Shown here: positions 24,027-30,401 of the stretch, in pieces
Layout of the letters: every line of letters starts with the position of its first letter
Position numbering within the stretch: position 1 is the first letter of the stretch
Source of the DNA: Aquitalea aquatica
Lineage (GTDB): Bacteria; Pseudomonadota; Gammaproteobacteria; Burkholderiales; Chromobacteriaceae
DNA length: 64,000 nucleotides
Reading direction: 5' to 3'
Assembly: GCF_013911085.1 (NCBI RefSeq)
Contig: NZ_JACERN010000039.1
Coordinates: 310,001-374,000 of the forward strand
The notes under the pieces: generated by a model
What the model saw: only the letters and a program-made list of their open reading frames with translations
The model's database searches: none
Told to the model about the DNA's origin: nothing
Translations under genes and position numbers: made by a program

Positions 24027-24029
24027 GAC

Positions 24030-24058
24030 TTGCAAGGGGCGAAAGTCCCTTGTATAAT
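24030..24058 (+). promoter_or_regulatory. spc operon promoter
   Basis: TTGCAA (24030-24035) and a perfect TATAAT (24053-24058) are separated by 17 bases. The spacer carries an inverted repeat CAAGGG-N8-CCCTTG (24033-24052) whose arms touch both boxes. It lies just after rpsQ and about 180 bases before rplN, in the position of P-spc in E. coli. Confidence 0.85.
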
Positions 24059-24124
24059 GGCCATCTTCTTATCCGTGTCGGATAGGAATTCCGCCCTTAC
24101 GGGGTCCAAAACTGGCCGTTTGAC

Positions 24125-24150
24125 ACGCCACAGTCTTGCTGTGGCGTTTC
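24125..24150 (+). other. Leader hairpin upstream of rplN
   Basis: A perfect 9 bp stem (24125-24133 with 24139-24147) and a TCTTG loop are followed by only TTC. It lies in the 5' leader of the spc transcript and could be a weak attenuator or an mRNA stability element. Confidence 0.45.
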
Positions 24151-24230
24151 GTCTGTTTGGTCTTGCTCTTATGCGAGAAACCGGCAGGTGAAAGTGACGG
24201 ATAAAGTTGGATTAGAAAGGTAATCATCAA

Positions 24231-27818: not shown

Positions 27819-28250
27819 ATGCTGCTGAACACCATTCAACCCGGTGACGGCGCCAAGCATGCGAAGCGTCGTGTAGGTCGCGGTATTGGTAGCGGCCTGG
27901 GTAAGACTGCCGGTCGTGGCCATAAAGGTCAAAAGAGCCGTGCAGGTGGTTTCCACAAGGTCGGTTTTGAAGGCGGTCAAATGCCGCTGCAACGTCGCCT
28001 GCCGAAACGTGGCTTCAAGTCGCTGACGGCTCGCTTCAATGCAGAGGTTCGCCTGTCCGAACTGAACTTGCTGCCGGTCGATGAAATCGATCTGTTGTCG
28101 CTCAAGCAAGCTGGTCTGGTTGCTGCTCAGGCTCTGGTAGCCAAGGTAGTACTGTCTGGCAAGATCGAGCGTGCTGTTAAGCTGCGTGGTATTGCAGCGA
28201 CTGCCGGCGCTCGCGCTGCCATCGAAGCTGCCGGCGGCAGTATTGAATAA
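27819..28250 (+). CDS. rplO: 50S ribosomal protein L15
   Basis: L15 (143 residues) is an assembly protein of the 50S core. The glycine- and arginine-rich N-terminal extension ([20 protein letters not shown]) and the [19 protein letters not shown] motif are characteristic. It starts three bases after rpmD and precedes secY by 11 bases. Confidence 0.99.
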
Positions 28251-28261
28251 GGCGCACTTAC

Positions 28262-29581
28262 GTGTCGAATACTTCTCTAGTGGGAAATGCCAATAAATTT
28301 GGTGATTTGAAGCGCCGTATCATGTTTTTGATCGGAGCTTTGATTGTTTACCGCATCGGCGCTCATATTCCGGTGCCTGGTATCAATCCTGCCGAACTAG
28401 CGAAGTTGTTCCACACGTCGCAGACGGGCCTGCTCGACATGTTCAACATGTTCTCGGGCGGTGCCCTCTCGAGATTTACGGTATTTGCCCTGGGCATCAT
28501 GCCGTACATCTCTGCTTCCATCATTCTTCAGCTCGCTTCCGAGGTTTTACCTAGCTTGAAGCAGCTGAAGAAGGAAGGCGACGCGGGACGTCGTAAGGTA
28601 ACCCAGTACACACGTTATGCAACCGTATTGCTGGCCTCGTTTCAGAGTTTCAGTATCGCGGTAATGCTGTTTAAGCAGCCTAACCTGGTGGTGACTGCCC
28701 AGTGGGAGTTCTACCTGACAACCGTGGTAACCCTGGTTACCGGCACCATGTTCCTCATGTGGCTGGGTGAGCAGATTACCGAGCGTGGTATCGGCAACGG
28801 TATCTCGCTGATCATCTGTGCAGGTATTGCATCAGGTGTTCCGGCTGCCATTGGCAAGACGCTCACGCTGACCAGTCAAGGCTCGCTGCCCATCCTGTTT
28901 ACCATCGTGCTGTTTGTTGGTGTTGCACTGATGACCTACGTTGTTGTGTTCGCAGAACGCGGCCAGCGTAAGGTATTGGTCAACTATGCCAAACGGCAGG
29001 TTGGTAATCGTGTCATGCAGGGCCAGAGCACGCATATGCCGCTCAAGCTCAACATGGCAGGGGTGATTCCGCCGATTTTTGCATCCAGTATCATTCTGTT
29101 TCCTGCCACTATTCTTGGTTGGCTCGGTAACAATGAAAGCCTGGGTTGGCTCAAGGGCGTGGCTGACAAGCTGCATCCCGGACAGCCCATCTATGTGCTG
29201 CTGTATGCAACGGCCATCATTTTCTTCTGTTATTTCTACACTGCTCTCGTTTTCAATCCGAAAGAGACGGCAGATAACCTGAAGAAAAGTGGTGCTTTCA
29301 TCCCAGGTATCCGTCCAGGTGAGCAGACTTCGCGTTACATCGAGAAGATCATTCTGCGGCTGACACTTATCGGTGCGATCTACATTACGCTGGTTTGTCT
29401 GTTGCCGGAATTCCTCATCTTGAAGTGGAATGTACCGTTCTACTTCGGTGGTACATCACTGCTGATTATCGTGGTGGTCACCATGGATTTCATGGCTCAG
29501 GTTCAGTCCTACGTACTGTCGCATCAGTATGAGAGCTTGCTGAAGAAGGCTAACTTCAAAGGCAATGCCCTTACCCGCTGA
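28262..29581 (+). CDS. secY: Preprotein translocase subunit SecY
   Basis: SecY (439 residues) is the pore-forming inner-membrane subunit of the Sec translocon. About ten hydrophobic segments are visible, with the plug region after the first and the cytoplasmic loop near [20 protein letters not shown] used by SecA and ribosomes. The start is GTG at 28262. The gene following it in relatives, infA, is present only as a pseudogene. Confidence 0.99.
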
Positions 29582-29604
29582 CACACGTGTTCTCGCTGGG
29601 TTAT

Positions 29605-29818
29605 ATGGCTAGGTAAGACACCATCCAGATGCAGGGTGAGATCAGGCAGTGGTACTTAGGTGCTACTGCAGGATCAAACTTGAGAATGGACACGTAGTAA
29701 TTGGGCGTAAACAGTAATGACACAGATGTCCCATCTGTGTCCTGGCTGTTTACAAGGTTACGGTGGAGCTATTCCATCCGATTTGACCTCTGCCCGTATC
29801 GTGTTCCGTGCGAAATAA
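29605..29818 (+). pseudogene. infA: Decayed infA (translation initiation factor IF-1)
   Basis: The 273-base gap between secY and rpmJ contains the remains of infA in the normal position. ATG GCT AGG is followed by an in-frame TAA at codon 4 (29614-29616), then DTIQMQGEI in the same frame. A one-base loss shifts frame to IKLENGHVVIG (29673-29705), followed by stops at 29715 and 29718. The tail resumes with VTVEL (29757-29771), and after another one-base loss DLTSARIVFRAK ends at TAA 29816-29818. The total is five bases shorter than a 72-codon infA. With a stop codon and several indels, a sequencing error is unlikely. IF1 is essential in E. coli, so a functional copy should exist elsewhere. This is inferred from my own alignment to the family sequence. 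Confidence 0.9.
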
Positions 29819-29854
29819 CGCACTCGCTCTTTTAGAGTAACGAAAGGAACTGAC

Positions 29855-29971: not shown

Positions 29972-30000
29972 TTGTTAGACCTGACTTTGCGTGTTACAAT
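29972..30000 (+). promoter_or_regulatory. Probable promoter of the alpha operon (rpsM-rplQ)
   Basis: TTGTTA (29972-29977) and TACAAT (29995-30000) are 17 bases apart, beginning just after the rpmJ stop codon and 39 bases before rpsM. Box quality is moderate to good. Confidence 0.6.
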
Positions 30001-30038
30001 CGCAAACTTTTCAAGGTCTTAAGGCTTAAGGAAAGAGT

Positions 30039-30401
30039 ATGGCCCGTATTGCAGGGGTAAATATCCCCAATCATGCGCATGCCGTTATCGGCCTGCAGGC
30101 AATTTTCGGCATCGGTCAGACTCGCGCCCAGCAGATTTGTGTTGCTGCCAGCGTGAATCCCTCCACCAAGGTGAAGGATCTGACAGAAGCTGAGATGGAA
30201 ACTCTGCGTGAAGCAGTGGCGAAGTTCACCGTTGAAGGTGACCTGCGTCGCGAAATCACTATGAGCATCAAGCGTCTGATGGACATGGGCTGCTATCGCG
30301 GTCTGCGTCATCGTCGTGGCCTGCCGTGTCGCGGTCAGCGCACTCGCACTAACGCTCGTACCCGCAAGGGACCGCGTAAGGCGATCGCCGGCAAGAAGTA
30401 A
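30039..30401 (+). CDS. rpsM: 30S ribosomal protein S13
   Basis: S13 (120 residues) bridges the 30S head to the 50S subunit. [20 protein letters not shown], the helix-two-turn-helix region, and [20 protein letters not shown] near the basic C-terminus are present. It is the first gene of the alpha operon. Confidence 0.99.

Follow-up and report, generated by a model that had tools for sequence, protein, structure and literature searches.

Recurrent loss of infA from the spc operon in Aquitalea and two families of its order, with a vacated stretch that may be retained as folded mRNA

What is left of infA between secY and rpmJ in Aquitalea aquatica, where has its protein function gone, and why does the vacated stretch still look conserved? 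The locus lies in a 64,000-nt stretch of the genome (the window), where an intact secY (28262-29581; SecY 99% identical to that of A. pelogenes) is followed by a 273-nt secY-rpmJ spacer (29582-29854) containing the dead infA (29605-29818), then by intact rpmJ (L36, 29855-29968) and, as the gene after rpmJ, intact rpsM (S13, 30039-30401), all on the + strand. In Proteobacteria, infA belongs to the ancestral secE and spc operons, according to the part of PMC8046335 available to us, and an expression table in the accessible part of PMC7742992 places infA2 of B. pertussis between secY and rpmJ. The first-pass annotation had described a decayed infA with a stop at codon 4, kept in the order secY-infA-rpmJ beside intact rpmJ and rpsM, and each of these points was borne out. 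Direct reading places the ATG at 29605-29607 and a TAA at codon 4 (29614-29616), after which the reading frame is lost; the fragment ARIVFRAK is the C-terminal end of the dead gene, closed by the old-gene stop TAA at 29816-29818. No full-length open frame, and hence no translatable IF1 frame, runs through 29605-29818 on the + strand, and the longest + strand ORF beginning in the spacer has 44 codons and a translation unlike IF1. The spacers of 10 Aquitalea genomes could be aligned with the intact-infA spacers of G068, G010 and G011, with the secY-rpmJ order preserved. A new small ORF in the spacer was considered and rejected, as the longest ORFs vary by species and none, by eye, recurs across the genus. 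A plasmid search gave no match.

An error of sequencing or assembly in a functional infA has a practically negligible probability. The homologous spacer was found in 10/10 Aquitalea genomes (our own included); the GCTAGGTAAG lesion at codon 4 is common to eight of the ten, and G008 carries a different lesion. The infA locus is ruined in eight of the nine sister genomes, the ninth (G009) holding a degenerate but open copy of 71 codons with a TTG start (57 bits), with dN/dS of 0.16-0.21 vs 0.02-0.11 in intact pairs. Because the ruined locus recurs in the separate assemblies of sister genomes, and three of the ten Aquitalea assemblies (G001, G004 and G005) are single-contig, sequencing error is excluded for the window. 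Error may account for part of the decay in one of the 24 dead members of the family, G018, which deserves less weight because its genome is 80% complete and its secY lies in two pieces.

The first-pass annotation had also stated that the absence of any other infA would point to sequencing error, and had proposed that an older duplicate took over. The genome-wide search that it called for returned one PF01176 match, an intact infA at C6:33855-34046, on a contig other than that of the spc operon, which speaks further against an error. This second infA matches TIGR00008 at 108.3 bits (cut-off 61.15); its product of 87 residues carries a C-terminal extension and matches solved IF1 chains (E 2.8e-24), and the genes next to it encode an EAL-domain response regulator and an amino acid permease. 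Of the 61 family genomes, 55 have an infA that does not lie beside secY, a distribution that, in place of an IF1 tree, dates the second copy before the genus and before the loss. The proposed takeover is thus supported: the older infA elsewhere would supply IF1, presumably being expressed and sufficient. Two Aquitalea genomes contain, besides the usual second copy, an extra infA with a different C-terminal tail (L197, G001:C1:2762120-2762311; L199, G004:C1:2320888-2321079).

Alignment with related genera, likewise suggested at the outset, revealed that the loss is genus-wide in Aquitalea and recurrent in the family, in agreement with the earlier view that a core translation gene has been relocated. 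Among the 61 family genomes, 31 contain both copies, six the spc copy only, and 24 have lost the spc gene, with residual PF01176 matches at the spc site in three of these (G009, G069 and G072). The spacers behind these counts comprise 54 that were read and five read later, plus G022, assigned from sequence, and G013, judged intact via a PF01176 match beside SecY. In a second family of the same order (f5, 43 genomes), 14 genomes contain both copies, nine the spc copy only, and 20 lack the spc copy (g14, g40, g44, G085, G088 and G094), based on 30 spacers read, nine more, and four genomes (G087, G095, G097 and G099) judged by PF01176 position alone. At least one infA was present in all 104 genomes of both families. 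The nine f5 genomes G111-G119 have an intact spc infA. Extraction yielded a spacer from 39 of 40 loci (G135 was lost). On the secY-rpmJ tree of 54 genomes at least five changes are needed, four of them forced by well supported branches; assuming irreversible loss, seven losses were counted by eye, or six should G072 and G073, whose placement the tree leaves unresolved, be sisters. Since the classes with both copies, with the spc copy only and with the spc copy lost were found in two families, the sequences indicate an older duplication followed by repeated departures of infA from the spc operon. At least three lineages hold only a short spacer between secY and rpmJ: 128 nt in G015, 118-131 nt in G057, G131 and G127, and 12 nt in G054; the search for other infA copies covered genomes other than G131 and G127. 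Three separate dead lineages (G009, the G036 clade and the g9 clade) no longer have the start codon of the old infA, which went through ATG to TTG or a small deletion.

The vacated stretch itself is predicted to fold strongly. The spacer 29582-29854 has folding z-scores of -6.0 (60 dinucleotide shuffles) and -5.6 (100 shuffles), and the consensus fold of the 10 Aquitalea spacers comprises 81 pairs on the + strand. Helix 2 (7 pairs) joins 29589-29595, before the old start codon, to 29681-29687 in the old KLENG codons and is invariant in 10/10 Aquitalea. A hairpin over the old infA start (29596-29634) consists of helices 3-5, of which helices 3 and 4 never vary, and is followed by hairpin HP1 (helix 6, 29635-29680), where six of the 16 consensus pairs have changed on both sides. 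The long-range helix 7 (16 pairs) joins 29688-29707 in the old GHVV codons to 29791-29806 in the old ARIVFR codons; 98.8% of its cells are paired in the 10 Aquitalea, and 11 pairs are invariant. Between its arms lie HP2 (helix 8, 29708-29752), whose inner stem of 10 bp (29719-29741) has its counterpart in an inverted repeat of intact infA, and HP3 (helices 9 and 10, 29755-29789). HP4 (helix 11, 29808-29823) lies over the old stop codon, and HP5 (helix 12, 29826-29838) just 5' of the rpmJ ribosome binding site. The invariant blocks, translatable fragments included, pair with one another, namely the pre-start segment with the KLENG codons, the GHVV with the ARIVFR codons, and the two small pre-rpmJ hairpins within themselves, and the variable parts are hairpins that change in sequence with their stems mostly retained. 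The fragments KLENGHVV and ARIVFRAK, which the first-pass annotation had noted as readable, are indeed present on the + strand; what it missed is that they are more than slow-decaying leftovers and pair in a conserved predicted mRNA fold. Helices 2, 3, 4, 11 and 12 are invariant in Aquitalea apart from a gap, and therefore no covariation is seen there.

Neither a promoter nor a strong terminator was found on the + strand of the Aquitalea spacer; the terminator scan gave one weak + strand site of 5 pairs at HP4 and one - strand site at HP2. In most rows of g40 (A2 columns 130-147) and in g14 (A3 columns 120-140), the region enclosed by the long-range helix contains a box resembling an extended -10 element (TGCTATATT, TGTTATAGT or a close variant), perhaps a promoter for downstream genes. 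The idea that the fold opens the rpmJ binding site was rejected as weak, because openness lies above the shuffled mean in 16/19 dead spacers tested but also in 6/8 intact ones, and the site is barely more open than with shuffled upstream sequence.

Does this fold reflect selection, or is it what an ordinary pseudogene would leave behind, with infA decaying neutrally and the hairpins being residues of the coding gene or chance? We consider the latter improbable, and it is now disfavoured. The intact gene does already contain the inverted repeats, and divergence of the spacer is in places near that of secY synonymous sites (0.19 vs dS 0.32 for G000-G001; 0.20 vs 0.23 for G000-G003). Pair retention and double changes, on the other hand, exceed several nulls, which included shuffles, slid partners, rewired pairs and substitution models, none of them accounting for phylogeny. 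In Aquitalea (10 sequences), 97.5% of cells are paired vs 95.0% in shuffles, and 13 pairs show changes on both sides vs 4.4. The corresponding values are 93.5 vs 89.1% and 13 vs 7.3 in g40 (7 sequences), and 95.8 vs 91.0% and 11 vs 3.2 in g14 (6 sequences). In each of the three groups 0/500 shuffles reached as many both-side changes, so that compensatory changes lie above shuffles, which ignore kinship. 'Further pair types' in g40 were not above shuffles (135/500). Slid partners gave 30-53% paired, a control in which the folds are favoured because they were derived from the same sequences as were counted. Both g14 and g40 are dead genera of the second family in which PF01176 detects no infA at the spc site, yet their spacers fold at z -3.9 to -6.7, which also argues against the hairpins being coding residues.

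The fold of one species alone was also applied to another and scored against random sites, or the same sites with random bases. From G000 to G001, 7/89 pairs were broken vs 22.9 (random sites) and 14.8 (same sites), and from G001 to G003, 3/91 vs 13.0 and 8.8. The same-site null was not beaten for G000 to G008 (p 0.07), G000 to G003 (p 0.09) or two G009 comparisons (p 0.58 and 0.64), and this scoring carries no information on close species pairs, G000 to G005 for example. Among eight intact comparisons, breaks fell below both nulls for G024 to G016 and below one of them for G014 to G010; secY controls were mostly near the null. Watson-Crick double changes were further counted against composition-matched rewired partners, in tests that, like those of base skew, covered groups other than g40 and took each species pair both ways, which makes their p values too small. 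Dead Aquitalea gave 31/99 changed pairs vs 2.7%, g44 17/116 vs 6.1%, g14 18/200 vs 5.5% and dead Chromobacterium (g7) 5/58 vs 2.0%, a weak signal for that clade, and g9, with too few changes, gave 0/12. Intact genes also exceed the rewired null (14/142 vs 1.3% in the first family and 10/139 vs 1.8% in the second), so the fold seems to be under some constraint in living genes too. Covariation and pair retention are thus signs of constraint at the RNA level, and the spc infA is therefore a pseudogene for the protein only, with a possible function at the RNA level.

Simulated neutral decay points in the same direction: in most runs carried as far as dead Aquitalea have diverged, the structure is gone. 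With 74 substitutions introduced into G068, G010 and the barely broken G009 (36 runs), mean z was -0.8 to 0.2 and the minimum -3.2, vs observed values of -5.6 in G000, -3.6 in G008 and -3.4 in G001; dead G003 (-2.7) and G006 (-3.0) lie within the simulated range. As a test of dead versus alive, the z-score was rejected, because dead spacers (mean -3.95, n=24) and intact ones (-3.31, n=30) overlap; spacers of nine intact f5 genomes reach -3.6 to -6.6. Background z averaged -1.6 over 95 operon windows (spacer included) and -1.2 over the 14 other intergenic gaps of the window, one of which is at -5.6. The intact infA genes are predicted to carry much of the dead-spacer fold. That structure is special to intact spc infA was not upheld by codon permutation (-1.64 vs -1.63 for other operon genes); with codons drawn from the operon, intact spc infA is moderately more structured (-2.52 vs -1.27).

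The hairpins could alternatively be made at the DNA level, by template switching at imperfect inverted repeats that perfects palindromes in unconstrained DNA. HP1-HP3 are close inverted repeats, and the strand test is non-significant for disjoint Aquitalea pairs (p 0.08), g7, g9 and g44. On the mRNA strand, however, pairs changed on one side only are G-U more often than A-C, both in the larger Aquitalea set (34 to 5; p 0.007 against a rewired null of 2.2 to 1, from counts taken both ways) and in g14 (75 to 18; p 0.016 under the rewired null, likewise). Retention extends to the long-range helix, whose two arms are separated by about 80 nt or more, and is there due mostly to invariant pairs and one-sided changes. 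Palindrome making is accordingly quite improbable, slightly more so than neutral decay, and the structure probably acts in the mRNA. An earlier binomial test of G-U against A-C (42 to 10) gave way to the rewired null, since a ratio of 104 to 58 in secY controls showed that base composition inflates it.

The main rival is a specific regulatory RNA, an element between secY and rpmJ that binds a ribosomal protein or other factor, or is an RNase III site, and sets the output of rpmJ and the alpha operon, with the infA coding sequence overlaid on a pre-existing element. The order of elements (hairpin, long-range helix, HP4, HP5, rpmJ start) is alike in two families, and the covariation in intact genes would also fit. 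Hairpin sequences and loops nevertheless vary between lineages, some lineages hold only a short spacer, and Rfam 15 at curated thresholds gave no match inside 29582-29854. We regard this element as unlikely on present evidence, while giving it more weight than any other alternative.

Combined with the above analysis, the account that we favour as probable, by some margin short of certainty, combines genuine pseudogene status at the spc site with the supply of IF1 by an older infA elsewhere and with a dead stretch retained as folded mRNA, likely as a shield; the best reading is that the protein function was relocated while the RNA structure remained. Much of the fold was, by prediction, already present in the coding gene, and the covariation counts suggest that the dead stretch of secY-rpmJ mRNA would have been retained as a chain of hairpins plus a long-range helix partly via compensatory changes. 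The most likely purpose is that about 270 untranslated nt inside an essential ribosomal operon would need folding, and the fold would keep Rho and RNase E from cutting expression of rpmJ and the downstream genes. As stated in the accessible part of PMC13323073, Rho monitors RNA that is not being translated, and the E. coli factor recognises the dinucleotides CC and UC. Dead spacers are folded and have C below G, modestly in Aquitalea (skew -0.09) and more strongly in other groups (-0.10 to -0.32), with -0.03 in G009 and -0.07 and -0.10 in intact spacers. Lineages with short spacers would have no need for the fold. A broader version can be offered tentatively, as a real possibility that falls short of probable: the spc infA would be a dual-purpose sequence whose frame is made expendable by the second infA and whose fold persists and improves as an anti-polarity insulator, repeatedly and in at least two families. 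Such a noncoding insulator would separate secY from the rpmJ-alpha operon genes, which are essential.

Several neighbouring elements were also observed in the window. The rpsQ-rplN gap (24027-24230) holds a strongly folded leader, with 270-nt windows down to z -5.2, which is a candidate spc leader and had no match in the Rfam search; it contains two hairpins, the first beside a promoter-like TATAATGG box and the other formed by CCACAG/CTGTGG, and the first hairpin varies with its pairing kept (six genomes; 6/19 gaps parsed). For coding sequence, the 5' part of secY (28225-28764) has unusually strong structure, at z -4.2 to -5.8 in 270-nt windows and with a codon-permutation z of -5.0 over the first 216 nt. 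Between rpmJ and rpsM there is a promoter-like site at 29972-30000 with TG before the -10 box, and a sub-threshold Alpha_RBS match (28.9 bits vs 38) lies at the rpsM start (30004-30071).

Taken as a whole, the two families offer a natural series from living to dead gene in a bacterial operon that is among the most conserved, and the old duplication can be seen there with either result side by side, the spc copy lost or the second copy absent. This suggests that a coding sequence can be dropped while its encoded RNA shape is kept, and provides a testable case of how operons tolerate mid-operon gene loss without polarity. Among the matches listed in our literature search, no paper dealt with an RNA in the secY-rpmJ spacer, or with bacteria whose spc operon had lost infA. 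Alpha_RBS (RF00140), the S4 target of the alpha operon, is likewise a cis RNA structure in the same gene cluster; its position differs, being downstream of rpmJ and about 150 nt past the secY-rpmJ spacer. Chloroplast infA was reportedly lost in parallel, with nuclear copies, as Millen et al. are said to have described in 2001. The present case resembles it in the gene concerned and in parallel losses that leave pseudogenes, and differs in concerning a bacterial chromosome, without organelle transfer, and a spacer that keeps its structure. Closer at hand, the part of PMC8046335 available to us describes rpmJ and rpsN as lost from the spc operon with pre-existing second copies behind them, rpmJ three times; here, too, a core operon gene is gone and an older homologue lies elsewhere. 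Unlike the losses in that part of the paper, the present one concerns infA, shows stages of decay, and has left a stretch whose RNA structure still seems to be conserved.
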